DNA from: an uncultured Bacteroidota bacterium
Lineage (GTDB): Bacteria > Bacteroidota > Bacteroidia > Chitinophagales > Saprospiraceae
DNA: 64,000 bases
Assembly: GCA_902609095.1 (NCBI GenBank)
Contig: CACLQQ010000004.1
Span: 1-64,000 of the forward strand
Direction of reading: 5' to 3'
The notes under the pieces were generated by a model. That model searched no databases, was not told the origin of the DNA, and saw only the letters and a list, made by a program, of their open reading frames with translations. Positions 3,104 to 44,125 of the stretch are shown here, piece after piece. Position 1 is the stretch's first letter; each line of letters begins with the position of its first letter. Made by a program: the position numbers and the translations under genes.

Positions 3104-3133
3104 TTGATTTTTTTGGAGGTGCTCTACTAAATT

Positions 3134-4542: not shown

Positions 4543-4584
4543 GGCATAAAAATAGTATCTTATATGTTGAGCTTTTGTTATTTC

Positions 4585-4616
4585 ACGCTAAGACGCTAAG
4601 ACGCTAAGACGCTAAG
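4585..4616. repeat. Four tandem copies of an 8-bp unit (ACGCTAAG)
   Basis: Four perfect head-to-tail copies of ACGCTAAG lie between the divergent GyrI-like and glycosyltransferase pseudogenes. The unit length is not a multiple of three and the tract is noncoding, about 95 bp before the likely start of the plus-strand glycosyltransferase remnant. Too short and without spacers to be a CRISPR. Confidence 0.9.
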
Positions 4617-4711
4617 GTTTTGGAATAAAACTATGTGGTTCTCTTTTACTTAACGACCTCTGCAGCTCTGTGAGATATGTTCTTAATATAGAGATGACTA
4701 TTTACCTTAGT

Positions 4712-6309: not shown

Positions 6310-6373
6310 GTCTTTAGGAGATTCGATCTTCAGCTAAATCTTTAGTTTAACACTCTACAAGGTGAGAATAAAA

Positions 6374-8143: not shown

Positions 8144-8280
8144 CAGTTAAGCTTAATAGTCAGCGAAGATAAAAATATATTAATACATGCAATTATTTTC
8201 AATATGAAAAAGTATAATATTTAGTTTTTGTAGTCGATCTCTAGTACTGGCTCCAATCGCCTATATACTTTTTGTAGTCG

Positions 8281-8977: not shown

Positions 8978-9117
8978 TAGTGCTGTTATTATTGTTTCAA
9001 TAATAGTCTGATTCTTGAATTAAAAAATATCAATCACGTTATAAACGTAATTGTTAACACAGTTTGCCTAAAAAGACTGTCTTAAAGATTTATTTAAAAA
9101 ACTTTAAGTCCTATTAT

Positions 9118-16201: not shown

Positions 16202-16726
16202 ATGCAAAAGATTCTTACTGGTGTTATAATCGTAGTTTTTGCGCTATTTCTTTACAACTTTTTCTTGATGCCGCCGAGTTTTACCAATGGAACAGAAGCA
16301 CCTAATATTCAATCAGAATTAATTAGTGGTGAGGAGTTTAGTTTAGAAGAACTACGTGGTAATTATGTACTGATAGATTTTTGGGGTTCTTGGTGTGGGC
16401 CATGTAAACGAGAGATTCCTCAGTTGAAGCAATTATACACTGAGTTCAATGATCAATCGTTTAAGGATGCTGAAGGTTTTGAGGTATTAAGCATTGCGCT
16501 TGAAAAGTCTGAAAAGTTTACGAGAAAAATAATAAAGGATAGAGGCTTGGATTGGCCCTATCATATAATCGATATATCGAGAGTGGTTATGCTTTCAAGT
16601 ATTGCACAAGATTATGATGTGAAGGAATTACCGACAAAGTTTTTGATAAATCCTAAAGGTCAAATTATTGGAACAGACCTGCCGTACGAAGAAATGTCAA
16701 AGCTATTAAGAGCTCGATTGAACTAA
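16202..16726 (+). CDS. TlpA/ResA-like membrane-anchored thioredoxin-fold oxidoreductase
   Basis: A 174-residue protein with an N-terminal membrane anchor or signal (ILTGVIIVVFALFLYNFFL), followed by a periplasmic thioredoxin-fold domain with the active site WGSWCGPCK (about residues 61-69) and a cis-Pro-like loop KELPTKFLI. This AhpC/TSA-like group reduces disulfides in envelope proteins or during cytochrome c maturation. Its 3' end overlaps the convergent glycosyltransferase pseudogene by about 21 bases. The 82 bases before it (16120-16201) contain no clear RNA or promoter. Confidence 0.88.
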   Translation: MQKILTGVIIVVFALFLYNFFLMPPSFTNGTEAPNIQSELISGEEFSLEELRGNYVLIDFWGSWCGPCKREIPQLKQLYTEFNDQSFKDAEGFEVLSIALEKSEKFTRKIIKDRGLDWPYHIIDISRVVMLSSIAQDYDVKELPTKFLINPKGQIIGTDLPYEEMSKLLRARLN

Positions 16727-17859
16727 GCTTATTGATTTAGAATTTCTACTATTAAAATAGTAAGTCTTAATCAAATCTATATCGAACTTTTCTTTAACAA
16801 ATTCACGGGCATTCATACCCATGTATAATTTGCGTTCGTAAGTAAGTGTAAGGAATTTCTCAAGTTGCTTAATTAGGTCATTTATATCTTTGGGTTTACA
16901 TAAGAACCCTGTTTTATTCTCTTTGATAACATCTCTACACCCAACCTGATCGGTTGTATTTATTGGTGTAGCCATACTTGCCGCCTCCAATAAAATTCTG
17001 GATAAACCTTCTTGATAAAATGAAGGAAAAACTAAACAATCAGCCCATTGTATATAAGGTCTTACATCCTCAGTAATTCCAAGATATCTGATGATTCTGG
17101 CATTTTGCCATCTCAGAATTTCTTTATACTCAATCGATTCTGGGTTAGAGTTATCTATAAAATCCAATATTTCAAATCTCGAATTTGGATGGGAATGTCT
17201 AATAACAGATGCTGCTTTGATAAATTGATATATTCCTTTTGGTCTAATCAATCGTCCTGCGAATAAGAATCGAATCAGCTGATTTCTCTTTTTTGCGACG
17301 GCTCTTAACTTTTGAGTGTTGATTCCTTCTGAGGGAAGGATACTAGGCTTGCCAATGGAGCAGAGACTTTTTTGAATAAAAGTAATTTGATCATGTTTAT
17401 TCAAAAGCCAAATATCATCTGCAGCAGTACAAGCTAAACGATAGAGGAATTCACTCAGAATATTTGATAATTTAGTTTTAAAAAGAAACATCCGCCCCAA
17501 CCCTATTACGACAATGTGGACTGTTTTATTTTGGTCAAGTAGGCGACTATGGTACCATATATATTTGGTTAAATCGTATAATGATAAATTCGATTATATT
17601 GATATCTCTTATACTTCTTGAAAAGCATCCAGGAGTATTTTAAGTCCTGAAGAGGATTAATCCCATAATTATTTAGTCTTATAGGAAGAAAATGCGCTCT
17701 ATCCGCTATCAACTTGTTGCTGTAGTTGTCTTTAGGTGCTATAACATAAATTTCATGACCCTGAGCCAGAAGATATCTGATGAAATCTATTCTAAAATTG
17801 TAAATACTCCAAGAGGTATAGAAGACAAATGCTATTTTCTCAGTTTTAGTATTAAGCAT
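16706..17859 (-). pseudogene. Glycosyltransferase family 4, one stop and one frameshift
   Basis: The start codon at 17859 directly follows the manC stop. The N half (KIAFVFYTSWSIYNFRIDFI... ) ends at TAA after YHYTI, where this family usually has a conserved TIKPNIYG; the same frame continues PNIYGTIVAYLTK. A frameshift near 17528 leads into the rest: VVIGLGRMF, FLFAGRLIRPKGIYQFI, DCLVFPSFYQEGLSRILLEAASMATP (nucleotide-sugar site) and FLCKPKDINDLI. The Lys codon to TAA and the indel inactivate it. Otherwise it is full length, about 385 codons, close to WbpY/Cap-like GT4 enzymes. It is the last gene of the polysaccharide operon. Confidence 0.88.
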
Positions 17860-18930
17860 TTAAACATATGAGCTGTCTTTAAAAGATGAGCGAAGTTGCT
17901 TTATCGCTTGTTCTTCTTCTCGTGGAAAAATCAATAATACATCTTCATCATCAATAATGATGTAATCATCAATTCCTTTTGCAACGATCAGTTTATCAGA
18001 CTTGTAGGATTTTATTAAGTTTCGTGATGCATCTTCTAAATGAAGGTGCTCAGATAGGGCAACATTATCTGAGGCATCTTTTGAGCTCAAGTCATAGAGG
18101 GAATTCCATGTACCCAAATCGGACCAGCCAATATTGGTTGGTATGGTATACACATTATCCGCATGTTCCAGTATAGCAAAGTCTACTGATATTGACCTGG
18201 TTAGAGGATAAACTTCATTAATATAAGCTTGCTCTTCTGGACAGTTGAATTTGGAAGAGTCTCTCGATAGTGCTTTAGTAATATCATTAGCTGATTTTTG
18301 GAATGCACGAATGATTGTATCAACGGACCAAATGAATATACCGGCGTTCCAAACAAAACCACCTTGCTTTAGATAAGCTTGAGCCGTCTCTTTATCTGGT
18401 TTCTCTTTGAATTCTTTAACTACTTTGATTGAAGATTCTCCTTCTGAATAATTGATATATCCATATCCTGTATCAGGCCTTGTCGGTTCTATGCCCAGAG
18501 TCACAATTGCTGTATTATCTTGGGCGTAATCAAAAGCACGATTAAGGTCAGTGACAAACTGATTCTCTTTCATGATTACGTGATCAGAAGGCAACATGGC
18601 AAAAACAGCATCGGGGTTTTTAGCTTGCAAATGTAAAGCCGTATAAGCAACACATGGAGCTGTATTATTTCTAGAAGGCTCCAGTAATATTTGTTTTTCT
18701 GTTATTTCTGGAAGTTGCTTTAGAATTAAATCTTTATAGAGATGATTAGAGACAATAAGGATATTCTCTTTCGGAACAATTTTAGTTGATCTTTCAAAGG
18801 TCGACTGGATCAATGATTGACCAATTCCTAAAATATCTAAAAATTGTTTAGGTTTTAATTCTCTACTTGCTGGCCAAAATCTTGAGCCTACGCCTCCTGC
18901 CATTATGGCGATATAGTGATTGTTATTCAT
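17860..18930 (-). CDS. manC: Mannose-1-phosphate guanylyltransferase
   Basis: A 356-residue GDP-mannose pyrophosphorylase: GTP plus mannose-1-phosphate to GDP-mannose, precursor of mannose, fucose and rhamnose residues in surface polysaccharides. The motifs are IAIMAGGVGSRFWPASRELKPKQFL (nucleotidyltransferase), LEPSRNNTAPCVAYTA, MLPSDHVI, EFKEKPDKETA and WNAGIFIWS. It lacks the C-terminal phosphomannose-isomerase domain of the bifunctional enzyme, as is usual in Bacteroidota. It is undamaged within an operon whose glycosyltransferases are all broken; GDP-mannose has other uses, which may explain retention. Confidence 0.93.
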   Translation of the reverse strand: MNNNHYIAIMAGGVGSRFWPASRELKPKQFLDILGIGQSLIQSTFERSTKIVPKENILIVSNHLYKDLILKQLPEITEKQILLEPSRNNTAPCVAYTALHLQAKNPDAVFAMLPSDHVIMKENQFVTDLNRAFDYAQDNTAIVTLGIEPTRPDTGYGYINYSEGESSIKVVKEFKEKPDKETAQAYLKQGGFVWNAGIFIWSVDTIIRAFQKSANDITKALSRDSSKFNCPEEQAYINEVYPLTRSISVDFAILEHADNVYTIPTNIGWSDLGTWNSLYDLSSKDASDNVALSEHLHLEDASRNLIKSYKSDKLIVAKGIDDYIIIDDEDVLLIFPREEEQAIKQLRSSFKDSSYV

Positions 18931-18951: not shown

Positions 18952-20074
18952 TTATCTCATTCGTGATTCAATCTCTAAGTAACTCTTGGATAAATCATTT
19001 GACAGCTTTTCATAAACTTCGGACGCTTTCAATTTCTTTTGATATGTGGCTTCTTTTGTAATTGATTTTAGGAAATTCAGAATCTCAATATTTTGAGCAT
19101 ATTGATCACTGATATGCCAACCAATATCTTTTATGTAAGTCCAGGTGTCACTACTTATAGTACCATGAAATAGTACTGTACCCTTAGCAGAAGTTTGCCA
19201 TTAATGCTTTAGAGGGTATACAGATGTGAGTCCATTGAGATAATATAGTGACTACATGTATATCAATTAGTTGAAACCATTCTTAATTTATCTCAACGAT
19301 GTATACTACGGCACCAGAGTTTTTAATATGTTTGGAGAGGTCACTACTTTTTAAACCAGTTGCAGATATAATAAATCGGTGTCTTGATCTATCTAGCTTG
19401 TCGGCTAATTCGATTAAAAAAGATAGATCATGTGCAGAGCCTAAATTGCTTTTATATGAGGTATATTATATGACCCCTTTTATACCATTTTGGTAAATTG
19501 ATTAATTGCGAAGAGTTCATTTTTTGAAGCTCAACGGGTATTGATACAAAACCTTGATAGCTAAATTCTTGACAGAGGAATTTACTTTGCTCTATACCTA
19601 ATGATAACACCAATTTTAGTTTAAAAATTCTAAGGCGTTTTTTAAAAAATAAGAATAGGATATTCCTTTTATCTATAAGGTCATGGGCCACAAATGCATT
19701 TGGATAGATATCCATGGACCAAAAAATGGTCTTTGATGAACTTAGGAAATAGCTCGAAAAAAGCTGTAAAAATGGAGGATCCGATAGAATGATATAATAG
19801 TCTGCATTAGTATGCCTTGCTTTATAGATCAATTTTAAGGAGTCTATAAAATCACCAATTAGTCGCAGAAGTATCCGCTTTCCATAATAGTGAGAGGCGA
19901 TAGATTTGCGATTCAGGCTATCTGTAGCGTCTAGACCAAACGTATTTTTTGCTTAGTATGTAATAGAGTGATAGAATGACCTTGTTCTTTTAAATATTGG
20001 GTAAATTAATGGGCCTGATATCCTGTTGGAGATCTCGGAGGACTAAATCGTCTATTTACGAGGACGATCTTCAT
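18952..20074 (-). pseudogene. Glycosyltransferase family 4 (WbuB-like), heavily damaged
   Basis: From ATG 20074 (MKIVLVNRRFSPPRSPTGYQA, typical of WbuB-type N termini) the frame meets several stops, continues as ADYYIILSDPPFLQLFSSYF and MDIYPNAFVAHDL (19452-19832), and shifts to YKSNLGSAHDLSFLIELADKL and FIISATGLKSSDLSKHI. After a TAA it reads VTILSQWTHICIPSKAL, and after another shift SAKGTVLFHGTISSD to the stop at 18952. About 370 codons originally, at least five lesions. The start overlaps the end of the next glycosyltransferase pseudogene, and the 3' end is 22 bases from manC, so it was inside the operon. Confidence 0.85.
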
Positions 20075-21254
20075 AATGACTTTCTACGACCGCCTTATAG
20101 AAGTTCTGATGGTTTTCAATAAAGCACTTTTTATCAAATAACTTAAAAGTAGCCTTATATGAATTATTGCCCTGTTCTTTGAGCAAGTTAGGATCTGATT
20201 TATAATACTCTATACTTTGAAAAAATAATTTGGGATCTCTTGTCGTAATCACTTTGCCAAAGTGATATTTAGCAAGTACCTCGTGAAGATCTCCAACATC
20301 ATAGCTTAAAATGGGCAAGCCAGTAGCCATTGCCTCCTAAATGCTGATAGGGCTTGATTCATATGTTGAAGTACAGAGATACACTTGTGCTGAATTGAGA
20401 AACTCATTAATATTACTAGCATATCCATGAAAGTCAATGTTATCTAATTGTAACTCATCAGTTCGTTGTGTGAGAGAAGCGGCATAGGCCTTTCGGCTCT
20501 CCAATATTGGGCCCATTATATGAGACAGAATATCAGTGCAGCCACTTATTTAGTATTGACAAGCTATATCAATTAGTAATTCAAGTCCTTTCCACTTATT
20601 AATGTAACAGGTTGTAATGACATTAAATCCGTCCACTGTTAATAGAGATGAATTTTCAGGAAAATACTGATTATGATCTATACATGAGGAGATGACAATT
20701 TGATTTTTATAATAGATATGTTTGAATGACTTATTGTAGTATTCTTTAGATCTATTGCTTACAAACAAATAATTGTTATCGAGCCTTGAGAGAGGTGTAA
20801 AAATCACATTGCTCAATCCAGATAGATAGCTATCATGCATGACCTAGATGTAAGGTTTATTTAGAATATAGGCGACTATAACACCCTTAATTTGGATAGC
20901 ACTATGACATACGATTAAATCGAAGTTTTCAGCTCTGATAACTTTGATTAGCTGAATCACCCCAGGGATGAGATAGACTATATAGGCCAGGAAATTTTTG
21001 AAGTTTAGCACTCGTAAATTAAGTGCGATGTAATTTATTCTGGGGTGTAGTTGATTTGCCTTATCATCATTTTTCGCTAATGGACTAATAATAACTTGCT
21101 TAAGAACTGAGTCAGAGACGATATCTCTTATATACTGAAATTGACCTCCTCCTCGACCATCTTCACTTATATGTGCAACCTTAATGTTATTAACTGAGTT
21201 CTTTAAACCAGTTATGGTTCGATATATAATCAAACGTAGATAATGCTTGACCAC
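20052..21254 (-). pseudogene. Glycosyltransferase family 4 with three in-frame stops, no frameshift
   Basis: ORF-track pieces 20844-21254, 20550-20840 and 20052-20330 are in one frame. They are separated by TAG (after LNKPYI, before VMHDSY), TAA (after IACQY, before ISGC) and TAG (in ISI*EAMATGLPIL, often Trp or Leu in this motif). The rest reads as a complete GT-B enzyme with HISEDGRGGGQF, the Rossmann part, CYINKWKGLELLI, ESSPISI, EAMATG (nucleotide-sugar site) and a C-terminal helix. The true start is unclear: GTG 21254 lies inside the upstream sulfotransferase remnant, and the homologous part begins near NNIKVAHISED (about 21190). Confidence 0.88.
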
Positions 21255-21965
21255 CTAACTGATGAAATAGTTGCCCTGATTTGTAATTGAAGCAGTTCTT
21301 CCAGTTTCCTTGAATGCCTTTTCTTAGGAATCAGGACCCATGGTTTTGCTTTTTAAGTGTGGCAAAAGAATATTTATCAGTAGTAGTATTTATAAAACTC
21401 TTCTAAACTATTAGGTTTAAGTATTCCAAAGCTCTGATTAGCTCTTGTTTCAGATTAAGAAGCAAGTCTTCATATTTAATGATGAAATTTCCTGTTCGAT
21501 CACTTTGAATTGTATGATATTGCCAAGTCATTTTTTTACTTTTTACAGAGTAATGTTGATGGAAGCAATTTATGAATTGATATAAGTTTTTCTCGACATC
21601 CTCGATATCCTTGGTGTTTAATAGGTTAATCCAATATTATTTTTCATGAATCGGGCAATGGTAATTTGGGAAAATGAAATGATGGTAGGCAGATATCATT
21701 ACATCAAGATCATCTCTGATAATTATAATCGACTTATCAATCCTGCTATGAGGAAGTAGATGGCTTTGCATAATATATGAGCTGGTGCGAACGAATTGAT
21801 TACGAGGAAAAGTGATATCCACTAGCTCAGATAGCATCTGGCAGAACCAAGTACCCCCCAAGATTTAGGAAACTCTGATACCTAATAGGAGTCAGAATTA
21901 GGCACAAAATTCCAAAGGGCGTATCGTTGTAAATCGATGGGTCCATTATAAATCTTGGTAATCAA
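21190..21965 (-). pseudogene. Sulfotransferase domain protein, broken
   Basis: The reconstructed protein has VSEFPKS-GGTWFCQML (the PAPS 5'-phosphosulfate loop, normally PKSGTTWL), SIIIIRDDLDVMISAYHHF (the 3'-phosphate-binding IRDPRD-like element), NFIIKYEDLLLN and FLRKGIQGNWKNCF (the C-terminal RKG..GDWK motif). Lesions are a TAG before VSEF, one extra base between PKS and GGTW, TAA after IHEK, TAG after LNLIV and TGA before FLRKG. It likely began at TTG 21965, overlapping the TGA of the upstream glycosyltransferase. A membrane-associated PAPS-dependent sulfotransferase of polysaccharide clusters; clearly inactive. Confidence 0.85.
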
Positions 21966-22732
21966 TAGTTTTTTACTCTTCTCAAGGACAAGGTAATAAG
22001 GTCTCTCATGATATAAGGTAGATGAGAAAGTACTAAGTCTTTTTTTTGTAGATTATCTCATTTAACTCTAATATTATTACATAATATTCGGCTGTTGATA
22101 GAGGATTTCACTGTGTAGTCCAATAGTATTTCTTGTAAATTATGGAATGCTGCTTGATCATAAATTCGATACCATAGGTCTGCATCCTCTGCCCATCATA
22201 GGCTAGGATCATAATAGCCGAAATTTTCGTAGACCTGCTTTCTAAGAATTATAGTTCGATGAAAAACAATCGTCTTTTTGAAAATCCGATAAACTATTTG
22301 TTCGTGTGTTGGTGGTAAGGTTAAGCTTTTGATTACTTCTCCATCTTCATTAATATACCTTACTGCACTGCCTAATATATCAACCTTTTTATGAGTAAGG
22401 AGAAACTCATATTGCTTAAGTATTCTATCCGGATATGTATAGTCATCAGCATCCATCCGTGCTATGATTTGGCTCTGAGCGATGTCTATTGCTTTATTAA
22501 GGGAATAAGAGAGGCCCGGATTTTTTTCATTTGTGACATGTTGAATTCTTGTATCCTTTAAGGCATACTGATCCAAGATTTCTGATGTTTGATCAGAATT
22601 GGCATCGTCAATAATGATAAATTCAAAATCTGTGATAGTCTGATCTAATATACTATTAACCGCTCGTTGCAGAGTCGACTCTGCATTATAGCATGACATG
22701 ACAATACTAACCTTAGGCTGTTCTTTTAGCAT
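21962..22732 (-). pseudogene. Glycosyltransferase family 2 with two in-frame TGA stops
   Basis: A 257-codon frame from ATG 22732 with the GT-A features VSIVMSCYNAE, FEFIIIDDANSDQT, LSYSLNKAIDIAQ and IARMDADDYTYPDRI (DXD). After a TGA at about 22196 (SL*WAEDADLWYRI, where Trp is usual before WAED.DLW) the same frame continues through DADLWYRIYDQAAF and NLQEILLDYTV. A second TGA (NIRVK*DNLQ) occurs before the stop at 21962. No frameshift, so Trp-to-stop changes alone inactivate it. It sits 16 bases after the wzy pseudogene in the polysaccharide operon. Confidence 0.88.
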
Positions 22733-22748
22733 AGTGTTTTCGGGACTA

Positions 22749-23960
22749 TTAAGTAGTAATTACTCCAGTAGCGAAGCCAAAGAAAATCCAATAATATACG
22801 GTGAACATGGAATCTTCGCCAAGACCAAAAAACATCATAAAGCAGAACATGAATAGCAGTCGCTTGTCGAAAGGTCGAGCTACGTTCTTAAGCTTGACTG
22901 TTAGCCATACGAAACGAGATTGAACTAAAAAGTGCAATAATCCAGACCCCTATCCTAAGCTGCTTTCTTGATGAACATAATCGGATTCTGGGGTGATAGG
23001 TACATAATTCAATATAGTATTGACATTGTAAAAGTCAACAAAGATCTGCCCATTGAATATATCTGTATAAAAAGGATATCCCATTAAACCAACCCGAAAT
23101 GGAAAGATTTGTACAATTTTGAAGGCGTTTGCGTAGCTATAAAAACGAGTATCATAAATGAGATTAATAAAGTATTGGTCCTTTAGGAGTAAAATTGCTA
23201 AAGTTATGAGGCATATAGTCAAAATCTGCCTTCTAATACTGTCAATATTGAATAAAAGGACTGCTCCAATTATTCCAATCATATAACTTCTGATTCCGAA
23301 CCCAGCAAATAGTATAAGGCCAATCATCAATACTTTGATGTTTTTAGTTGGCACCATGTAAAAGGTGTATGCACTTAAAAGCCCAACAAGTAACCATAGC
23401 GTTGCTTCATAATACCAAAGTCACATCCAGACTATGAACGAAAGCAGCATTGAATTCAGTAAAGTAATACTTCATTAGATTCTGCAATACAATCTGAATA
23501 CTGTAAAAAACAACCAATGCTATAAGAATCCAATTGACCCATATGGTCCTTCTATAAAACAAGCGATCATCACAATCCCTTATTTTAAAGTAAAAGATAT
23601 GAACCACAGCGGCTATTACTAGGAATATCAATTGATATAGAAACCAAGATGAGTCTATATATGGGTTAAGCGCAAAATTCAACGTATAGACTATGCCAAG
23701 GAGAATATATTGATTTAGTGTTGGCCAATAAGTTGATAGTTTGATTCCTGAGGTAAGTAATATAATGATTAGGCCTCCAAAGGAAATGTAATTGACAAAA
23801 TTGAAAGCATTCCCCCCTAATGCACAAATGTCAATCGGTAGTCCAAAAAGCTGTGATACATAGAATTAAAAAAGGTAAGCTGGAGCAAGGTCATAATTAA
23901 GAAAAAGCTGACTATGCTTATCCTGATACTGAAGAAATCAGTTAATGAAGTTGCTCTCAT
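22749..23960 (-). pseudogene. O-antigen/polysaccharide polymerase-like (Wzy-type) membrane protein, broken
   Basis: Its start (MRATSLTDFFSIRISIVSFFLIM) overlaps the wzx stop by ATGA. A one-base loss in a T run near 23865 shifts the frame to FGLPIDICALGGNAFNFVNYISFGGLIIIL. More membrane helices follow (FLYQLIFLVIAAVVHIFYF, WILIALVVFYSIQIVL). A second shift near 23407 leads to LWLLVGLLSAYTFYMV, GLILFAGFGIRSYMIGIIGAVLLF and the rest; a TAG at 22950 precedes the last helix pair. About ten helices and position beside wzx fit a Wzy polymerase. Wzy proteins share little sequence, so the name rests on topology and context. Confidence 0.75.
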
Positions 23961-25396
23961 GATTTGTTATTAATTCTATCCTGCACAAACTTAAATTGTA
24001 ACCTTATCTCCGGCTTGAATATAATCCCTGTAACCAAGAGAGCTCCAAACCAAGAAAACAAAAGATTGAAAGCTATCATGAAGTAAAACTCTGTACTAAG
24101 CCAGTGTTGTAAAAGCTGACTTAAAATGATGAAAAGAATAAAAAGGGAGCTTACATAAGCTATAACTCTAAAAGCGATTCTGGAATTTTCAATATGATTG
24201 AATAGTGTGTAGGACCAAGTCATAAACCAATACATTAAGGAAATAATACTATATATGATAACAAATTGCACCATAGTTATGTCATAAATGAAAAAGCCAA
24301 GGATCAGCGGCACAAATATGACCACGGTTGCCAGCCAGTATAGCCGTGAAAGTGTTTTAGACTGTAAGGCATTGATATACATGATATTCGTAAGCCCCTT
24401 AAAAATTAAGGATAGACCAAGAAAAGACAACCACACAACATAAGTTCCTGCTTCCATCCATTGAGACCCAAGTATTAGCAATGTTAGTTCTTCACCAAAA
24501 AGAAAAAAGAATAGACATGGAATTCCAATAACATTAAGAATTAACAAGGATAATAATTGATAAGCTTGATTTAAGCCACCCTGTGTCATTGAAGCTATAT
24601 ACGTCATGGCAGGAGTTGTAATGGCATTTCTAAATGTGTTAGGCTTATCCACAACAAATAATCCTCGTTCATAATGTCCAAGAGTAATTTCTCCGAAAAT
24701 TTTACCAACAAAGAGCCTCTCAATATTTCCGGTAACTCCAGTTATCAAGCGACTTATGGTAAGATGATAAGCCTGTTTTATATATGGCTTAATCTTTAGT
24801 AGGTGAGATTTAGAGACTAACTGATATTTGGCCCGTGACAAAAAGAGAGCACCAGATAGTCTAATTGCACAATAAGATAGGTGCTTAATGGCTAATGAAA
24901 TAGCACCCAATCCAGAGATAGCCAAGAGAATCGCAGTTATTAAGGCAACTGCATTTGCGCCCACTGATATAAGTTCTGTCTGATAAAATTTCTTATTCCT
25001 GAGTAATTGACTGAAGGGTTGGTTAGAGCTACTCATACAAATAGCAGATATGGCCTGAATTCCGAACAAAGTATAGAGTAATTCTATCTCATAATAGTAA
25101 ACGATCACGGGGCCTGTAATCAATAAAGAAATTGCCACTAGAATACCGAAAAAGAGATTTATTGATAAGAATGAGGAGTTAATGGCCTTGTTAACCTGAG
25201 GATATTTGATATAGATAGGTGTCAACCCAAAATCTAAGAAAGACTGAAAAAACAAATAGATAGCGAAGCATAGAGCATAGATACCAAAGTCCTCGGGACT
25301 AAGTATTCTGGCTAATAGGATTATTCCTCCTAAACTAATGAGTTGTTGTAATCCAACACCTATTAATGATATAGCTGCTCCTTTGATAGGATTCAT
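23957..25396 (-). CDS. Wzx-type oligosaccharide flippase
   Basis: A 479-residue MOP-superfamily polysaccharide exporter with about 12-14 helices. It opens with GAAISLIGVGLQQLISLGGIILLARILSPEDFGIYALC, the usual start of Wzx/WzxE-like flippases, and has the amphipathic NKPNTFRNAIT region. It flips lipid-linked repeat units across the inner membrane. Both ends are coupled by ATGA overlaps to broken genes: the sulfotransferase pseudogene upstream and the wzy pseudogene downstream. The frame has no lesion, in contrast to both neighbours, so it is either recently orphaned or still used. Confidence 0.9.
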   Translation of the reverse strand: MNPIKGAAISLIGVGLQQLISLGGIILLARILSPEDFGIYALCFAIYLFFQSFLDFGLTPIYIKYPQVNKAINSSFLSINLFFGILVAISLLITGPVIVYYYEIELLYTLFGIQAISAICMSSSNQPFSQLLRNKKFYQTELISVGANAVALITAILLAISGLGAISLAIKHLSYCAIRLSGALFLSRAKYQLVSKSHLLKIKPYIKQAYHLTISRLITGVTGNIERLFVGKIFGEITLGHYERGLFVVDKPNTFRNAITTPAMTYIASMTQGGLNQAYQLLSLLILNVIGIPCLFFFLFGEELTLLILGSQWMEAGTYVVWLSFLGLSLIFKGLTNIMYINALQSKTLSRLYWLATVVIFVPLILGFFIYDITMVQFVIIYSIISLMYWFMTWSYTLFNHIENSRIAFRVIAYVSSLFILFIILSQLLQHWLSTEFYFMIAFNLLFSWFGALLVTGIIFKPEIRLQFKFVQDRINNKS

Positions 25397-26303
25397 GAAG
25401 CGCTAAGATAGTTTTGCTCAATACACATACCGTTTAATCTATTATCATATTCACAAAGTTTGGATATGATAGAAAATATGCTTTTTATTTCTACATGATC
25501 TAATGTTTCTCTCCAAAAGAATTCTAATGATTTAGGACGGTTCCTCAATTGAGAATATTGTTTATGATGCACCGTTTTCATTGTCACCATAGACGGAGTA
25601 AATAAGTGAGCCGGATGAATTGGGTGGCTATATAGATTTAGATTTCTAAGGAGAACCTCTGCCCTTTCAAAAGGAGATAAATAAAGGTCTTTGTAAAAAA
25701 CAGGTATTATTTGAAGAGTCTCTAGTTGTTTCAGAGCTTTAGTAGTTAAATATCTCCAATAGAATGCAATTTTCTGAATATCAGAATGACATATGGTCGC
25801 TATGTTTTTAAAATGCTATTTAGTGATTTGGTCAGTTAAAAGCTTCCAATGTTTCTTCCATCCTATATCTACCCAAAAGTTAGGTCGATTTACAATGGAT
25901 GATATTACTGCAAGTGGATGCCTGATGATATAAATTAAGCGAGCATCATAGAATTGTACTATATCTATAAAGGAAGAATTTAGTCGAATTGATTTAAATC
26001 CATGTACTTTGCATTTATCCCAAAGTGATTTTACACAAAAGGGGTCTACAACATTAACATCTGAATTAAGTGATTACGCAGAAGCCATGGACTGCGAATA
26101 TCCTTATTGAGAACTCCAGCGATATGATCTATTGCATCAACTGTAGCTATATTATCCTTGTACAGAATATGATGACTAGCTGGATATGTGCCAGGATGCA
26201 TGAGCTCAAATAGCACCATTCCTCCACTATATTTAGAGATGATATCAGATAACCATGTGGTTCCCGATCTGCCCAGACCTAATATTATTGTAGGTCGATT
26301 CAT
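25393..26303 (-). pseudogene. Sulfotransferase family protein, frameshifted and interrupted
   Basis: The first 85 codons (MNRPTIILGLGRSGTTWLSDIISKYSGG) contain the PAPS 5'-phosphosulfate loop GRSGTTWL. The frame shifts near 26046-26052 and resumes with VDPFCVKSLWDKCKVHGFKSIRLN and LIYIIRHPLAVISSI (the 3'-phosphate element). A TAG follows DQITK, and the frame then runs to YLSAS at 25393 with the RETLDHVE segment. About 303 codons, one indel and one stop. It lies directly after cysN, so a PAPS-using enzyme followed the PAPS-making genes in one operon; only the user is broken. Confidence 0.87.
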
Positions 26304-26320
26304 ATCGGAAAAATAGAGCT

Positions 26321-27577
26321 TTAAATTATCATACCGGCTGCTACTGTATTGTTAGAGGCCTCATCTATCAATATGATGCTACCTGTATTACGATTCTTTC
26401 TATAACAATCTATAAAAAGAGGTTTCGTGGTTCTCAGAACTACCCGAGCGATATCATTCATATTAATATTCTTATCGTCTAAATCTCTATGAAGCGAATT
26501 AATATCCAGCTTATATCTTATTTCTTTAACTATACAACGAGCGTCTTGAGTTGTATGACGAATACTATATTTTCCTCTTTGTTGAAGTGGACGGCTACTA
26601 TCAAACCAACAAAGCATAACTTCAATATCTTGTGTAATTTCTGGTTGATTGTTTTCTCTTACAATCATATCCCCACGGCTCAAATCAAGATCATCTTCAA
26701 GTAGTACAGTTACAGATTGAGGTGGAAAAGCCTCATCTTGTTCTCCATCAGGACCAATGATTTGTTTGATTTTGGTAGAAAAGCCTGTTGGTAAAAGTGT
26801 AACTGTATCACCTTTTTTCATTATACCTCCTGCTAAACGTCCAGCATATCCTCTATAATCATGGAATTCATCGGTATTGGGGCGTATAACGAATTGAACT
26901 GGGAATCTGGCATCAATGAAATTGTGATCACTAGCTATGTGAACATTCTCTAAATAGTACATGAGAGTTGGTCCATTATACCAAGGGGTTTTTTCAGATC
27001 TCGAAACTACATTATCACCAAGTAATGCCGAGATTGGAATAAAGTGAACGTCTACAACATCGAGCTTGGCAGCAAAGGCTTCAAAAGACTCTTGTATTTT
27101 ACTATACTCTTCTTGACTATAGTCAACCAAATCCATTTTGTTAACACATACCACGATATGAGGTATCTGTAAAAGAGAAGCAATGATGGCATGTCTTCTT
27201 GTTTGTTCAACTACACCATTTCTGGCATCAATCAGTATAAGTGCAACATTAGCAGTAGAAGCACCTGTTACCATATTTCGGGTATACTGGATATGTCCAG
27301 GAGTATCAGCTATAATAAACTTCCTTTTTGGTGTACTGAAGTATCTATAAGCGACATCAATAGTTATTCCCTGTTCTCGTTCAGACTTTAGGCCGTCTGT
27401 TAACAAGGCTAAGTTGACCCCTTCTTCACCTCTACGTTCTGTAGCATCTTTAATTTGATCATATTGATCTTGAAAAATGCTTTTACTATCATATAGCAAT
27501 CGTCCAATAAGAGTTGATTTACCATCATCAACACTTCCAGCTGTCGTAAATCTTAATAGTTCAGTATTGTCAGTCAT
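26321..27577 (-). CDS. cysN: Sulfate adenylyltransferase subunit 1 (GTPase)
   Basis: CysN couples GTP hydrolysis to APS synthesis by CysD (ATP + sulfate to APS). The 418-residue product has the translation-factor GTPase motifs AGSVDDGKSTLIGRLL, DTPGH and NKMD, then beta-barrel domains (ARFPVQFVIRP, GYAGRLAGGIMKKGD). It ends without a fused APS kinase domain; that activity comes from cysC in the same operon. The gene lies between cysD and the sulfotransferase pseudogene. No cysH or sulfite reductase gene is in the window, which fits APS/PAPS made for sulfation rather than cysteine synthesis; genome-wide absence is not shown. Confidence 0.95.
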   Translation of the reverse strand: MTDNTELLRFTTAGSVDDGKSTLIGRLLYDSKSIFQDQYDQIKDATERRGEEGVNLALLTDGLKSEREQGITIDVAYRYFSTPKRKFIIADTPGHIQYTRNMVTGASTANVALILIDARNGVVEQTRRHAIIASLLQIPHIVVCVNKMDLVDYSQEEYSKIQESFEAFAAKLDVVDVHFIPISALLGDNVVSRSEKTPWYNGPTLMYYLENVHIASDHNFIDARFPVQFVIRPNTDEFHDYRGYAGRLAGGIMKKGDTVTLLPTGFSTKIKQIIGPDGEQDEAFPPQSVTVLLEDDLDLSRGDMIVRENNQPEITQDIEVMLCWFDSSRPLQQRGKYSIRHTTQDARCIVKEIRYKLDINSLHRDLDDKNINMNDIARVVLRTTKPLFIDCYRKNRNTGSIILIDEASNNTVAAGMII

Positions 27578-27596
27578 GGTTTAACTTTAGTGATTT

Positions 27597-28499
27597 CTAG
27601 AAATAGCCTTCTTTTTTACGATCCTCCATTGCGGTTTCACTTCGTTTATCGTCAGTTCGCCCTCCCCTTTCTGTCATTCTTGTTGTGGCTACCTCTTCTA
27701 TAATATCTTCCACTGTAGACGCATTTGATTTCCAAACTCCTGTACAAGTCATGTCACCAATGGTTCGACACCTCACAGTTTCTGTAAAGACTTTCTCATC
27801 AGGTCTTTTCAAGATATAATCACAATCAGCTAATAGAGTACCGTCTCTTTCGAAAACCTCTCGTTGGTGAGAAAAGTATAAAGAAGGCAATTCAACATTT
27901 TCCATTGCGAGGTATTGCCAAACATCTAATTCTGTCCAATTACTTATAGGAAATATCCTGAAATGTTCTCCCATTTGCTTTCTTCCATTGAATAGATTCC
28001 ATAGTTCAGGGCGTTGATTTTTTGGGTCCCATTGGCCAAACTCATCTCTATGAGAGAAAAATCGCTCTTTGGCTCTAGCTTTTTCTTCATCTCTGCGAGC
28101 ACCTCCCATAGCCGCATCAAACTTTCCTTTTTCCAATGCACTTAGAAGCACTCCAATCTGAAGCATATTTCTACTGGCATTTACTCCTTTTTCTTCAACT
28201 GCTTGACCTGATTGTATAGCTTCTTCAACAGAGCCGATTATCAACTTAGCACCTAGTCGTTCTGATAAATTATCCCTATACTCCAGTGTCTCTGGAAAAT
28301 TATGTCCTGTATCTACATGTAAAAGAGGAAAAGGAATCTTGGCTGGATAAAATGCTTTGTGAGCTAAATGAACAATTAATATAGAGTCTTTACCACCTGA
28401 GAACATGATTACTGGTCGCTCGAACTGTGCTGCAACATCTCGTAATATGAATATTGATTCTGCTTCTAATTCTTTAAGATGACTGATATTATAATCCAT
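27597..28499 (-). CDS. cysD: Sulfate adenylyltransferase subunit 2
   Basis: CysD is the catalytic ATP-sulfurylase subunit. The 300-residue product has the PP-loop FSGGKDSILIVHLAHKAF, the HVDTGHNFPE segment and the family C terminus (RRTDDKRSE-like, ending MEDRKKEGYF). Length is typical. It begins 4 bases after cysC and ends 20 bases before cysN, so the three form one unit that makes PAPS. Undamaged despite decay on both flanks. Confidence 0.96.
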   Translation of the reverse strand: MDYNISHLKELEAESIFILRDVAAQFERPVIMFSGGKDSILIVHLAHKAFYPAKIPFPLLHVDTGHNFPETLEYRDNLSERLGAKLIIGSVEEAIQSGQAVEEKGVNASRNMLQIGVLLSALEKGKFDAAMGGARRDEEKARAKERFFSHRDEFGQWDPKNQRPELWNLFNGRKQMGEHFRIFPISNWTELDVWQYLAMENVELPSLYFSHQREVFERDGTLLADCDYILKRPDEKVFTETVRCRTIGDMTCTGVWKSNASTVEDIIEEVATTRMTERGGRTDDKRSETAMEDRKKEGYF

Positions 28500-28502
28500 G
28501 TA

Positions 28503-29099
28503 TTATATCAATTTCGATTTTTCAATTATGTAATTGTAAAGCTGTTCCACACTGTCTTCAACTTTTTGTGAATCCGTCTTAATTGTTAAGACTGCTCGTT
28601 TTGGTTCTTCATAAGGGGAATCTATTCCTGTAAATCCTTTTATTTCTCCAGATCGAACTTTCTTATATAGACCTTTCACATCTCTCTCTTCACAAAGATC
28701 AATAGGCGTATTAATGTATACTTCATGAAAATCCAGATCACCTATAATTTTTCTTGCGATTTGTCGTATACTGACTGTTGGACTAATAAAAGAACAAAGT
28801 GTAATAATCCCACTATTAGTGTACAGTTTTGCTACTTCAGATATTCGGCGAATATTCTCTTGTCTATCTTCAATGCTGAAAGAGAGATTATTAGAAATTC
28901 CTGTTCTTATATTATCTCCATCTAGCACTTGGACCATGAATCCTTTTTCAAATAGCTTTCTTTCAACGCCTTTGGCTATTGTACTTTTTCCAGAGCCAGA
29001 TAAGCCAGTAAGCCAAAAAACTGAAGCCTTTTGATTTAGAAATCGTTCTCGCTCTCCCCTTTGAACAAGTTGATTGAATATGGAATATATATTCTCCAC
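28503..29099 (-). CDS. cysC: Adenylylsulfate kinase
   Basis: APS kinase phosphorylates APS to PAPS, the donor for sulfotransferases. The 198-residue product shows the Walker A motif FWLTGLSGSGKSTIAKGVE, VLDGDNIRTG, DRQENIRRISEVAKL, and the lid/substrate part SGEIKGFTGIDSPYEEP. The usual ISPyRxxR segment reads ISPTVSIR, a small departure. It starts 2 bases after the DUF2061 gene. CysC next to cysDN, with sulfotransferase genes in the same operon, points to glycan sulfation. Confidence 0.95.
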   Translation of the reverse strand: MENIYSIFNQLVQRGERERFLNQKASVFWLTGLSGSGKSTIAKGVERKLFEKGFMVQVLDGDNIRTGISNNLSFSIEDRQENIRRISEVAKLYTNSGIITLCSFISPTVSIRQIARKIIGDLDFHEVYINTPIDLCEERDVKGLYKKVRSGEIKGFTGIDSPYEEPKRAVLTIKTDSQKVEDSVEQLYNYIIEKSKLI

Positions 29100-29100
29100 C

Positions 29101-29346
29101 TTACTTAAGTCTATTGAAAGGATTTAGTTTTCTAACACTTCCTCGTGGGATGGCTTGCCACGCTCGCTCATGTAAATAGTAAATAACCAGTTTAATAATG
29201 AACTCTATCGAAGCAATCTGTATTGCAGTATCGATTTCACCTGTCGTGAAATATGTAATTGCAAAAATTGTTGAGGTTGCAATTATTCTCCAAGTAAGCC
29301 CCTTAATAATACTTCTTAAATGAGATTCTTTTTCTACCTGTGACAT
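29101..29346 (-). CDS. DUF2061 membrane protein
   Basis: An 81-residue protein with two membrane segments and the DUF2061 pattern (LTWRIIATSTIFAITYFTTGE, then IELIIKLVIYYLHERAWQ). DUF2061 proteins are often found next to sulfate-activation genes, sometimes fused to CysC. The gene overlaps or nearly touches cysC, so it is likely the first gene of the PAPS unit. A sulfate-related membrane role is suggested only by this association. Confidence 0.9.
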   Translation of the reverse strand: MSQVEKESHLRSIIKGLTWRIIATSTIFAITYFTTGEIDTAIQIASIEFIIKLVIYYLHERAWQAIPRGSVRKLNPFNRLK

Positions 29347-29408
29347 GGCTGATTTTAAAAAATAAGAATATAAACCTACAATTATTATAAATAGCAGGGT
29401 ATGGGAAA

Positions 29409-30433
29409 CTATAACCTAATTAAATAAAGAGTATTAATGACGACAAGGGTCAAAATCAAACCCAAAATGACCCCGTATAACAATTATCTTAACGTGTTAA
29501 ACTCGTTAGGTTTAATTGGTGGATCAAGTAATAGAATAAGCGGTGTGTTATTTTGAAGAGTTAATTCAGCAATGGCTAAATTTTCTTCAGCTTTCGCATA
29601 AGCAGTCATGAGACCAAGAGATTCTGTTGATAGTTTGCTTAATTGTTCTGAAGATGTATTTCTAAATGAATTTTGGTTTAGGTCTCTCAATCGTGTAATT
29701 TCACTTTCTTTAGCATCGTAACTTGAATAAATAGAGTCTTTTTTAGCCCTTATTATGTCATAAGAAGATCTTTGCTTCTCAACTGCTTTATCAAAATAAA
29801 AATTTTTGAGATTATCAAAGTGAGCATTTAAATATTGGATAGACAAATCTTCTGATAGTGATTCGAGACTCAATGTCATTATATAATGGTCTCGACCATA
29901 TTCCATTTGCAAGAGACCTCATTGGGTTTCTTGTCCATTTATAAGAGACTGTAATTGTTTTACACCGTAATTGTATTGATTCAGATCAAGGTCTTGTGAA
30001 AAATGACCCTCATAAGCTGTCCCTAAATTTTCTAACCAAGATTTATCAATATCATGAAGTCTGATAAGTTCTTCTGCAATATTATACTCCTTGCCGTCAA
30101 TCCAGTAGGTATGTTGTAGGACTTGTTCTAAAATATGCATAGAGCGGGCTATTTCTAATAGCTTATATATATTATATTTCCCAGAAGAGACTGGCAGTCC
30201 GAATCGTCCTATAATACTTGATATACCTGTTATAGACTGCCCTCCGTCATCACTGAGCATCAATGTTAATTCGGCTTGATAGGTGGGAGGCCTATTGCTA
30301 TTCCAAAACCATAATGCGATCAATGAGACAGCAAAAGAAATAGCGAGATTTTCCATGATTTAGCTAAGAGTTTGACATAGCTTTTTATGGCTTTAAGGAA
30401 ATCTTCTAGTTAGATTTCATCTTCAGGCCTCAT
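29409..30433 (-). pseudogene. Wzz-type polysaccharide chain-length regulator, broken
   Basis: The likely start is ATG 30433 (MRPEDEI) with TAA as codon 8. The frame resumes (EDFLKAIKSYVKLLAKSWK), shifts near 30350, then reads LIALWFWNSNRPPTYQAELTLML (first helix and the Wzz N-terminal motif) and a long helical periplasmic stretch. This is cut by TGA at 29919 (INGQETQ*GLLQ), continuing with the coiled-coil AVEKQRSSYDIIRAKKDS. The conserved LLDPPIKPNEFNTLR precedes TAA 29484 and then the second helix (LLYGVILGLILTLVVIN). About 340 codons, three stops and one frameshift. Confidence 0.82.
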
Positions 30434-30457
30434 GGTTTTCTTCTCCAACATTATTTA

Positions 30458-33400
30458 TCAATCTTTGTAGTTGAGGGAAGGGAACAAAAACTTTTCTGCA
30501 TTTAATATAGATACCCCTTTTCTGCCTGCATAATCTGTTACTTGATCTAATTCAATCTGCCCAAGAGCAAAATATTTTGAATCTGGATGACTCAAATAGT
30601 ATCCACTGACGGAAGCAGCAGGATACATAGCTAAGCTTTCAGTAAGAGAGATTCCAATTCGCTCACTTACATTTAACAAACTAAATATGGTTTCTTTTTG
30701 CGCATGGTCTGGACATGCAGGGTATCCTGGTGCAGGTCGAATCCCTCTATATTTCTCTTTGATGAGGTCTTCATTTTGATATTTGTTTTGTTCATAACCC
30801 CAAAATTCAGTGCGAACCATTTCATGAAGTTTTTCGGCAAATGCTTCGGCAAGTCTATCAGCTAGAGATTTAAGTAAAATGCTATTGTAGTCATCATGAG
30901 TTGTTTCAAATGCCTTTAATTTGTTCTCTATATTGAGCCCAGTTGTTACGGCAAAGGCTCCAATATAATCTTGGTTTTTGTTCTGTGGTGCAACAAAATC
31001 TGCTAGAGCGAGTTGGGGAATTTTCTTACTCTTTTTGCGTTGCTGTCGCAGGCCGAATAATCGGTATTCTTTAGATTTTTCTCTAATTATGATATCCTCT
31101 TCTTTACTATAGGCAGGAAATAAACCGTAAACTCCATTAGCTGTTATCCATGACTCATCCACAATTTTTTCTAACATTTCCTGCGCATCCTCAAAAAGCT
31201 TTTTAGCTTCAATACCGATGACTTTGTTTTTAAATATTTGAGGATATTTTCCTTTGAGTTGCCAACTACTAAAGAATGGGGACCAATCTATATATTCTAC
31301 GATCTTCTTTATATCATAGGATAATAGTTCATGCACTCCCAATTGATTTGGTTTAGGTGGAATATAATTATCCCAATCCAATTGTAATTTCTTTAGTCTT
31401 GCTTGTTCAATGGGAATATACTCTTTTTGGGTAGTAGATTTTAAGCGCTGGGTTCTTACTCTATCGTACTCTGCTCTTGTGTCTAAGATGTAGTCCGACT
31501 TAGCGTTTTCATTATTAGAGGTCAAAATACTTGCTACACCCACGCTCCGAGACGCATCCAAAACATGTACTGTTGCTCCTTTGTATACTGGGTCGATTTT
31601 TAGTGCAGTATGTGTCTTACTAGTAGTCGCACCTCCAATCAATAATGGAATATTCATTCCTCGTTCTTGCATCAAGCTGGCTATATTAACCATTTCATCT
31701 AGTGATGGTGTTATTAACCCACTTAAGCCTATGATATCTACTTGGTGCTTAACGGCTTCTTCTAATATTTTAGTAGCTGGAACCATAACACCGAGATCAA
31801 TGATCTCAAAGTTGTTACAAGCTAGTACGACTCCTACTATGTTTTTTCCAATGTCATGTACATCTCCTTTAACAGTTGCCAATAGAATTTTTCCTTTTGT
31901 TTGAATAACTCCATCTTTTTCTTCTTCAATGAATGGAGTTAGATAAGCTACTGCTTTCTTCATTACTCTGGCGCTCTTAACTACTTGAGGTAAGAACATT
32001 TTACCAGCTCCGAATAAATCTCCAACAACATTCATACCGTCCATTAATGGACCTTCAATAACCTTTAATGGTGAAGACAACTCTTCCATTGCTTCTTGAG
32101 CATCAGCATCGATGAATTTAGTAATACCTTTAACTAAAGCGTGTTCAATCCTTTTAGATACGCTATTCTCTCTCCATGATAAATCAACAACTTTTGCCTT
32201 TCCTGAGCCCTTGACATTTTCAGCATAATTGAGTAATCGATCTGTAGCATCAGGCCTTTTATTAAATATGACGTCTTCGATGAGATCTTTTAGTTCGATA
32301 GGAATCTCATCATATATTTCCATCATACCTGCATTTACAATTCCCATATCCATGCCTTTTTTAATGGCATGATATAAGAATACACTGTGCATGGCTTCTC
32401 GTACTTTGCTATTTCCTCGAAACGAGAAAGAAATATTACTTACACCACCACTTATTTTGACCCCGGGACATTTCTGTTTAATCTGCTCCATTGCCTCAAT
32501 AAAGTTAATGGCATAGTCATTATGCTCTTCAATACCAGTTGCAATAGCAAAGATATTTGGATCAAATATGATGTCCTTAGGATTAAATCCTACTTGATTG
32601 ACTAATATGTCATAAGCACGCACACAGATTTCCACCTTGCGTTCGGTCGTATCAGCCTGGCCTACTTCATCAAATGCCATAACTACTGCAGCAGCACCAT
32701 ATCTTTTGACGGTTTTGGCTTGTTGGATGAACGCCTCTTCTCCTTCTTTCATAGAGATGGAGTTGACAATACACTTACCTTGGACACATTTTAAGCCTTC
32801 TTCAATTACCTCAAATTTAGAAGAGTCTATCATTATTGGAAGCTTGGCAATCTCTGGCTCTGCCATCATTAGATTCAAGAATTCCTTCATCTCCTTTTTG
32901 GAGTCTAACAGGCCTTCATCCATATTAACATCAATAATCTGTGCTCCCCCTTCTACTTGATCTTGTGCTACAGTTAAGGCTTCTTCATAATTACCTTCTT
33001 TGATTAGTCGTGCGAATTTTCTTGATCCTGTTACATTAGTTCTTTCTCCTACATTAATAAAGTTGATATTATCTCTTGCGATAAGTGGTTCTAAACCACT
33101 GTAAGTGCTATACCTTCCTTCTAAATTATATATTCTAGGAGATATTCCGATTACATTATCAGCCATGACTTTGATATGGTCTGGAGTAGTCCCGCAACAA
33201 CCCCCTATGATATTAACAAGGCCTGATGAAGCATACTCTTTGATATATTCTCCCATTTCTGTGGCTCCCTGATCATATTCACCGAGTTCATTAGGAAGAC
33301 CTGCATTGGGGTAGGCGCTTACTGGACATTGTGCAATATTTGATAGGTCCTTAAGGAAGGGCGTTAGTTCTTGAGCCCCTAAGGCACAATTTAGACCAAC

Positions 33401-34120
33401 TGACATTAAAGGCATATGAGATACTGATATCCAAAAAGCTTCTACTGTTTGACCGCTTAGTGTACGTCCACTTGCATCAGTAATAGTACCTGATACCATG
33501 ATAGGCCATTCTTGACCCTTCTCTTCGTATAATAGATCAAGAGCAAAAAGAGCAGCTTTACAGTTCAATGTATCAAATACCGTTTCTATTAATAGGATAT
33601 CTGCTCCCCCATCTACTAAACCTCTAGCTTGTTCGAGATATGCTGAGACTAAATCATCAAAGCTTACTGCGCGATATCCTGGATCGTTAACATCTGGAGA
33701 GAGTGATGCTGTCCGATTAGTAGGGCCTAATGCTCCTGCAATATATCTTGGCTTTTCTGAAGAGTTATATTTTTCCGTAGCTCGTTTAGCTACTTCGGCA
33801 CTTAGTTTATTTAATTCATAACTCAAGTCCTCCATATCATAGTCAGCCTGCGAGATTTTATTTGCACTAAAAGTATTTGTCTCAATTATATCCGCCCCGG
33901 CTTCCAGGTAGGCTTCATGAATCTCCTGAATGATATGTGGCTGGGTAAGAGAAAGCACTTCATTATTACCCTTTATATCCATATGATATTCACTAAAACG
34001 ATCCCCTCTATAGTCTTTCTCTGACAGCTTATATCGCTGGATCATAGTACCCATGGCACCATCCATTACAAGAATCCGACCCTTTAATATCTCTTTTATT
34101 TCTATTTCACTATTGCTCAA
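30458..34120 (-). CDS. metH: Cobalamin-dependent methionine synthase
   Basis: A 1220-residue, complete MetH that transfers methyl from methyltetrahydrofolate to homocysteine via cobalamin. The domains in order are: homocysteine-binding ([14 protein letters not shown]; zinc ligands in GLNCALG and [11 protein letters not shown]), pterin-binding ([14 protein letters not shown]), B12-binding cap and Rossmann domain (DVHDIGKN, His axial ligand), and the activation domain ([14 protein letters not shown]). The start appears to be TTG at 34120, overlapping the TGA of the upstream Wzi-like pseudogene (TTGA), because no ATG precedes the conserved start. Length is normal. No B12-riboswitch can be placed upstream, where the pseudogene lies. 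Confidence 0.96.
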
Positions 34121-35690
34121 TAGTCAATTCTTTTATTAAACATGTTAACCGACACTTCAAAACTGATATAACTGGTTTTATCATTTAGAGTTGTGTTTTC
34201 ACTTGTTTGATTTCGGTACAAATATCGTAATTCAGCGTAGTACCCTGGGAATAGTTCGTAAGACACGCTCAATGCCAATATTTTCTGTGGTGCTATCTCC
34301 ATAATTGGATGTTAATATCCTGGTGGATAATTTGACATCAGAACTGGGATGGTATGTTATTTCAAAAATTATTTCATTGAAATTAGCCCCCAATGGGTGT
34401 GCTAAGGCTTGATTGAAATAAGAATAGCTAGTTAAGACATTTCCTGTCTCATCCGCTACCCTTTGAGAATAGGTATAGGGTATAGCTGTATTAAACTCTA
34501 ATTGTAAGTCTAAACGATAAATATTAAAGAGATCATAATGTTTTACACCAAGCTGGTAGGCAATCTTATTTCTCCACCAACCATTACCAGCAAATATCTG
34601 ATCTGATCTAAACTCATCTAACATTAGTTGTCCATAAGATTTGGTACCATCTACGGGTATATAAGAAAGATTGAGACCAATGAGGACATTATCAGGACTA
34701 TCTAAGAATTGTTCTATCGTTCTATAAAGAGTTACTGGATTAAGATATTGTATTTCGAATTGATTGTTTCTACTAAATACTACTGCCTCATAAACGCCTA
34801 TACTAATCCTTGAAGAAGGTTTAAAATGTAAGTAGTTTGCCACCATGTATTTTTTAGGAAGAAGGTTGTCAACTTCGTTTTGAGTACTGCTTATGGAGCT
34901 AACTCAGTAAAAAGGTTTTGATAGTGGAACTTCCACACATTTGTATTGAGCTTTAAGGTATAAGTAATTGTGGCTGTAGTCGCTGAGCAACAATGATCTA
35001 TAACCGTCGTCGATGAAATTGTTCTCGAAGCTTAGTTGGAGATTGATAGATTTAGAAATTTTAAGATCAGTACATCCTTTAGCGTTAAGATGATCCCACC
35101 CATTAAAGGAGGTAATAATATTGCTTTGATAGCCTTTATAAAACCCTTGTCCTGAAATCTCTCCCCATCTATTAATTCTCTGATTTACAGTAGGTAAGAA
35201 CTCTCATTGATTTTCATAGATCACGCTGTAAAAGTATATTTTGTGATCTATGGATCCTTTTATTTTGAGCCCTCTGATATTTTGATTTATGGCATTTCCA
35301 GAGCTGCTACCTCCTTGGATGTTTAATATCGGATTGACTTTTAATTCGAAGTCATCTGTGCTGACTCGGAATAGATGATATGGCACTCTATAAGAAGCTC
35401 CCCAAAACCCACTCCTATTTTTAGTATCCTCACGTTTAGTATTTTTATATACGGATTGATTTCATCGTATTCTCCATTGAATTTTTTCAACTGTTCTTGA
35501 TCGGAATTAGAGAATATTGATAATGAATCCAAAACATCTATGTAAACAAGAGAGTCTGTATATCTAATAGCTGTATAAGGCGAAAAATCATTAGGATGAA
35601 TTGCTGAATTCGGTCAATTGTGTGAAACTGGTTGGGGTTGTAATCCAAAAAGCTAATCTAAGTAAAACAGAATGTGATAGTGTGAAATAG
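34117..35690 (-). pseudogene. RemB/Wzi-like outer-membrane capsule-assembly protein, broken
   Basis: Fragments in several frames line up as one beta-barrel protein: NSAIHPNDFSPYTAIRYTDS, TKREDTKNRSGFWGASYRV, VSTDDFELKVNPILNIQGG, YSVIYENQ (stop), LNAKGCTDLKI, YLYLKAQYK (stop), YMVANYLHFKPSS, YLNPVTLYRTIEQFLDSPDNVLIGLNLSY, QLMLDEF, and a C-terminal strand ending FNKRIDY. The NPVTLYR...QLMLDEF core is typical of Wzi-family capsule-attachment proteins and the gliding protein RemB. At least five lesions; the 5' end (about 35600-35690) is uncertain. It fits the lost polysaccharide pathway. The 3' end overlaps the metH start codon. Confidence 0.72.
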
Positions 35691-35716
35691 AAGTAAATTA
35701 GATGCCCCTGTTTTTA

Positions 35717-44104: not shown

Positions 44105-44125
44105 AAGTAATCAAACAAGCGTTGA

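Follow-up and report, generated by a model that had tools for sequence, protein, structure and literature searches.

Intact sulfate-activation genes within a decaying capsule locus of an uncultured Saprospiraceae bacterium

Why should a cell keep the genes for PAPS synthesis intact when the two sulfotransferase genes beside them are broken? The question is raised by a stretch of 64,000 nucleotides (hereafter the window; G000:C4:1-64000) from the draft genome of an uncultured Saprospiraceae bacterium, which comprises 2.76 Mb in 144 contigs with an estimated completeness of 58.7%. We have compared it with two congeneric genomes, G001 (5.0 Mb, 99% complete) and G002 (3.9 Mb, 97% complete). Both share the gene order of the window over 8.3-50.4 kb with their genes intact, and lesions were called by frameshift-aware alignment to these intact orthologues. 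At the protein level, CysD shows 88-89% identity to the two congeners; its closest named relatives are from Saprospiraceae, i.e., an uncultured Saprospiraceae MAG (82%) and Phaeodactylibacter (80-81%). The features of the locus are as follows.

16687-17915, minus strand: GT4-type glycosyltransferase, pseudogene with 2 frameshifts and 1-2 stops
17860-18930, minus strand: ManC-like mannose-1-phosphate guanylyltransferase, intact
18970-20074, minus strand: glycosyltransferase-like gene, pseudogene with 3 frameshifts and 2 stops (family assigned from position, as the congener protein has no Pfam match; counted as GT4-type)
20079-21185, minus strand: GT4 glycosyltransferase, pseudogene with 3 stops and 0-2 frameshifts
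21202-21989, minus strand: sulfotransferase 1 (ST1; Sulfotransfer_1, PF00685), pseudogene with 1 frameshift and 4 in-frame stops
21965-22744, minus strand: GT2 glycosyltransferase, pseudogene with 2 stops
22752-23963, minus strand: Wzy-like polymerase (assigned from position, no Pfam match), pseudogene with 3 frameshifts and 1 stop
23957-25396, minus strand: Wzx-type flippase (PF13440), intact
25405-26303, minus strand: sulfotransferase 2 (ST2; Sulfotransfer_3/1), pseudogene with 1 frameshift and 1 stop
26321-27577, minus strand: cysN, sulfate adenylyltransferase large subunit, intact
27597-28499, minus strand: cysD, sulfate adenylyltransferase small subunit, intact, sole copy recovered in the genome
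28503-29099, minus strand: cysC, APS kinase, intact
29101-29346, minus strand: DUF2061 small membrane protein, intact
29412-30455, minus strand: Wzz-type chain-length protein, pseudogene with 1-2 frameshifts and 3 stops
34120-35697, minus strand: Wzi-like capsule assembly protein, pseudogene with 5-6 frameshifts and 1-3 stops

By origin this is a Wzx/Wzy-dependent capsule or exopolysaccharide locus, most genes of which are now broken. The assignment is based on Wzx (PF13440) and the glycosyltransferases (PF00534/PF00535), with the polymerase placed by position only and the matches of Wzz (PF02706, congener protein) and Wzi (PF14052) lying below their cut-offs. Nine capsule genes are dead, i.e., the three GT4-type genes, ST1, the GT2 gene, the Wzy-like polymerase gene, ST2, Wzz and Wzi, with a total of 37 lesions over 9.45 kb (3.9 per kb). 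The survivors within the locus are ManC, the Wzx flippase, cysNDC and DUF2061. At the lesion density of this locus, Wzx and ManC would have survived by chance with probabilities of ~0.004 and ~0.015, respectively, and these two genes may serve another glycan.

The orthologues of ST1 and ST2 are intact in both congeners, and their proteins match Sulfotransfer_1 and Sulfotransfer_3. In the window, ST1 matches PF00685 with 43 bits, and ST2, which is placed directly downstream of cysN, gives a weak match. That is, the domain of PAPS-dependent sulfotransferases is still there, but both genes are broken. The three sulfate-activation genes are adjacent open frames with zero lesions, and all of them match their families above the cut-offs: CysD to TIGR02039 (417 bits, cut-off 397), CysN to TIGR02034 (550 bits, cut-off 336), and the cysC product (apsK) to TIGR00455 (242 bits, cut-off 139).

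An earlier note on this DNA had described a sulfated-polysaccharide operon with clean cysD, cysN, cysC and DUF2061 and with two sulfotransferase pseudogenes carrying stops and frameshifts. Much of this description holds. The four genes are uninterrupted frames with family matches, alignment to the congener orthologues bears out both pseudogenes (their coordinates, 21190-21965 and 25393-26303, were correct to within 25 bases), and the congeners carry two intact sulfotransferases together with cysNDC, Wzx/Wzy/Wzz and Wzi, while local sulfation is dead here. What had to be given up is the view that the breakage is specific to the sulfotransferases. As glycosyltransferases, polymerase, Wzz and Wzi are also broken, i.e., nearly the entire capsule pathway, a sulfotransferase-specific loss is ruled out. 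Overall, the window carries what is left of a capsule or exopolysaccharide locus of the Wzx/Wzy type, and its glycan would have been sulfated by ST1 and ST2 with PAPS supplied by cysNDC.

Outside the window, this 58.7%-complete genome carries, on contigs 19, 11 and 15, at least four sulfotransferase-family genes that are intact. The most prominent one encodes a 411-aa Sulfotransfer_3 protein on contig 19, which matches PF13469 with 141 bits (cut-off 27) over profile positions 1-215 of 216, that is, a full-length domain in an intact gene. It has syntenic orthologues in both congeners at 65-70% identity and is lesion-free. The same contig encodes a 249-aa Sulfotransfer_5 protein (PF19798), whose gene adjoins an ilvE-like gene. 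Contig 11 carries two adjacent sulfotransferase-family genes (322 and 233 aa), for which there is no syntenic partner in the G001 stretches compared, and contig 15 carries one of 328 aa, which is syntenic with an intact G002 gene at 36% identity. CysQ, which removes PAP, the by-product of PAPS use, is also intact (contig 39, above the curated cut-off), as the earlier note had proposed to check. The same note had suggested that PAPS is left with no visible local acceptor enzyme and may accumulate, and had named intact sulfotransferases elsewhere as the finding that would speak against it. The genome search has found exactly such genes, and since intact sulfotransferases and CysQ exist, the accumulation of PAPS without a user is rejected. 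The sulfotransferases on contigs 19, 11 and 15 would most likely be the users of the PAPS.

Still, intact genes could be mere latecomers to the decay, i.e., cysNDC may have no remaining use and be next in line, with no disabling mutation yet. This is made conceivable by the recent date of the decay, as protein change in the capsule pseudogenes is not greatly raised on the own branch, and by Wzx and ManC, which are likewise intact with no obvious remaining use. However, the lesion counts argue against it. In the 2757 bases of cysNDC, 10.8 lesions are expected at the capsule density, and none is observed (P ~2e-5); even at the lower density of the assimilation operon described below, the probability of zero lesions is ~0.02. 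For protein change, the branch-length ratios of pseudogenes and intact genes overlap (0.7-1.4 vs 0.6-2.2), so we have turned to single-step codon differences that occur in one lineage only and compared the nonsynonymous to synonymous counts (N/S) of the own branch with those of the congeners. With three genomes, saturated synonymous sites and small counts, N/S for cysNDC is 10/128 on the own branch and 20/239 in the congeners (p = 1), while it is 27/147 vs 28/309 for the assimilation operon (p = 0.016), 71/186 vs 103/384 for the capsule pseudogenes (p = 0.056), and 160/899 vs 261/1984 for core genes (p = 0.006). Thus cysNDC is the sulfur module without sign of relaxation, where even the core genes are slightly relaxed. 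As the candidate PAPS users are intact on other contigs as well, we regard the next-in-line explanation as unlikely. On the evidence of these sequence comparisons, cysNDC appears to remain under purifying selection.

PAPS may also be used for assimilation, as the earlier note had suggested, together with a genome check for cysH/cysI. The check does turn up cysH together with a sulfite reductase gene, but both are disrupted. The sole sir-cobA-met8-cysH operon recovered (G000:C8, L123:10071-14194) carries 1 frameshift and 2 stops in cysH, 1 frameshift in sir (a single one, which by itself could be an assembly error) and 1-2 frameshifts in cobA, with met8 open. G001 and G002 both have the four genes unbroken, and each of the two has a single sulfite reductase match, which lies in the syntenic counterpart of the broken operon. 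That is, the recovered assembly has no intact pair of cysH and sulfite reductase genes, and the use of PAPS for assimilation is disfavoured. The ferredoxin reductase-like gene and the ferredoxin gene next to the operon are undamaged. We have also observed that a gene at L123:14595-16066 of the same contig, which by eye resembles a ComM/YifB-type AAA protein and is 79-80% identical to the congeners, has two frameshifts and a stop, and that its neighbour at L123:16133-17274 is broken too.

One may then suppose that the broken operon is redundant and that PAPS serves mainly a second set of cysH and sulfite reductase genes, which was not recovered. There is room for such a set, since the own assembly is estimated to lack 41% of the genome, and G001 does have two cysH-like genes, the second at C26:131200. 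On the other hand, even the congeners, at 97-99% completeness, show no second complete reductive pathway, and the own recovered assembly, which at 58.7% completeness may lack a copy, has yielded neither another cysH nor another sulfite reductase gene. We consider this supposition quite improbable, more so than a mere delay in the decay of cysNDC. With a possible second cysH, as in G001, and an incomplete assembly, the loss of sulfate reduction is therefore not proven.

The weakest explanation, that the lesions arose as errors of assembly or sequencing in a fragmented MAG of 144 contigs and that all genes are intact in the cell, is very hard to believe and has been rejected, since the lesions include many nonsense substitutions besides frameshifts, are limited to functional modules and clustered in one of them, spare cysNDC and the housekeeping genes of the same contig, such as the 3.6 kb of metH (30458-34120), and go with a genome-wide unevenness of coding density.

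In the sampled 20-kb stretches from which pseudogenes were estimated genome-wide, the coding density (ORFs of at least 150 aa) is 0.54-0.98 for the own genome vs 0.91-0.98 for the congeners. This uneven density indicates that the decay is genome-wide and is therefore not aimed at sulfation. Host restriction would probably be its driver; our literature search for pseudogene-rich Saprospiraceae symbionts found no paper. Within 9.1-50.4 kb of the window, the alignable housekeeping genes are lesion-free with two exceptions. One is a DUF2851 gene beside an lpxK-like gene (36792-38035), which shows one frameshift against both congeners, and the other (42815-44118) has an ambiguous frameshift visible against one congener only. 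A further stretch of low coding density lies at 2000-9000, with fragmentary ORFs and a broken gene at 8290-9001, and several congener genes of this region have no match in the window.

Based on the above analyses, the explanation that we favour, and think probable though well short of certain, is that selection has kept cysNDC to make PAPS for intact sulfotransferases elsewhere, after both the capsule pathway and assimilation were broken. As judged from the congeners, PAPS from cysNDC in the ancestor would have served both capsule sulfation and the formation of cysteine via CysH and Sir. Both uses may have been lost when reduced sulfur became available from a host or community and the capsule was not needed. 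PAPS synthesis would then have been retained for stand-alone sulfotransferases, most likely above all the 411-aa protein of contig 19, with CysQ disposing of PAP; the selection tests are in support of this retention. A stronger version, which we put forward tentatively and hold at somewhat less than an even chance, is that the lineage is in the middle of a conversion, in which a single sulfate-activation operon with a shared role in cysteine and capsule synthesis is turned into a sulfation-only one that serves a few conserved stand-alone sulfotransferases.

Is such an end state known from other members of the family? In the family sample, five genomes that are all at least 91% complete (G005, G007, G009, G011 and G013) have cysD without a cysH match, the cross-match of CysD aside, and therefore activation without reduction is recurrent in the family. 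Four of the five carry Sulfotransfer_1 or Sulfotransfer_3 matches. In G011, the profile matches detect cysD, yet neither cysH nor a sulfotransferase, so the retention of cysD need not always mean sulfation. In G004, cysD, cysH and sulfotransferases are all absent, and G015 has sulfotransferase matches but no cysD. The co-occurrence is hence only suggestive of a sulfation role. Some Sulfotransfer_1 matches (G003:C70, G009:C107 and G015:C2) are restricted to the C-terminal half of the profile and lie in open frames of ~690-730 aa, which are possibly a separate fusion family. As to gene neighbourhood in other genera, where part of the gene identities was read by eye from the sequence, cysNDC adjoins metH and Wzz (L005) or sits among polysaccharide-type genes (L009, L015), and in Phaeodactylibacter it is beside neither.

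Coupling of a sulfate-activation operon to a carbohydrate sulfotransferase is also seen in the rhizobial NodPQ/NodH system for sulfation of the Nod factor. There, a dedicated cysDN duplicate is carried on the symbiotic replicon, unlike the present cysNDC, which is the only recovered copy and, to judge from the congeners, would serve both pathways in them. Within Bacteroidota, Bacteroides thetaiotaomicron has a cluster (BT_0411-BT_0416) in which putative genes for PAPS biosynthesis lie next to the sulfotransferase BT_0416, and which likewise ties the supply to sulfation (PMC9417993). This neighbouring enzyme is intact and has cholesterol as its substrate (PMC9417993), whereas the two sulfotransferases beside the present genes are part of a capsule locus that has died, and the candidates for PAPS use are encoded on other contigs. 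The marine Pontiella sulfatireligans has clusters for sulfated exopolysaccharide, in which glycosyltransferases are likewise grouped with a PF13469-type sulfotransferase, and cysDNC in its genome (PMC7356697). It differs in being from another phylum, in being intact, and in having the full assimilatory cysDNCHIJKM (PMC7356697), while the present locus has cysNDC within the cluster and consists largely of pseudogenes. Since activation without reduction is recurrent in the family and the linkage of PAPS genes and a sulfotransferase is known in Bacteroides, the end state is of a kind already known.

Overall, this is ordinary pathway decay, and its instructive feature is that sulfate activation outlives the breakage of two of its uses. 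It also gives a caution, that one broken operon does not mean a broken pathway until the rest of the genome has been searched. PAPS supply is the part of sulfur metabolism that is spared when sulfate reduction and capsule sulfation go. If the conversion were true, a non-capsular sulfated product, e.g., a lipid or a host-directed molecule, would be more essential to this bacterium than cysteine synthesis of its own from sulfate. And if sulfation-only PAPS synthesis were confirmed, the conserved contig 19 sulfotransferase would be a concrete target in the search for a new and apparently important sulfated product of Saprospiraceae.
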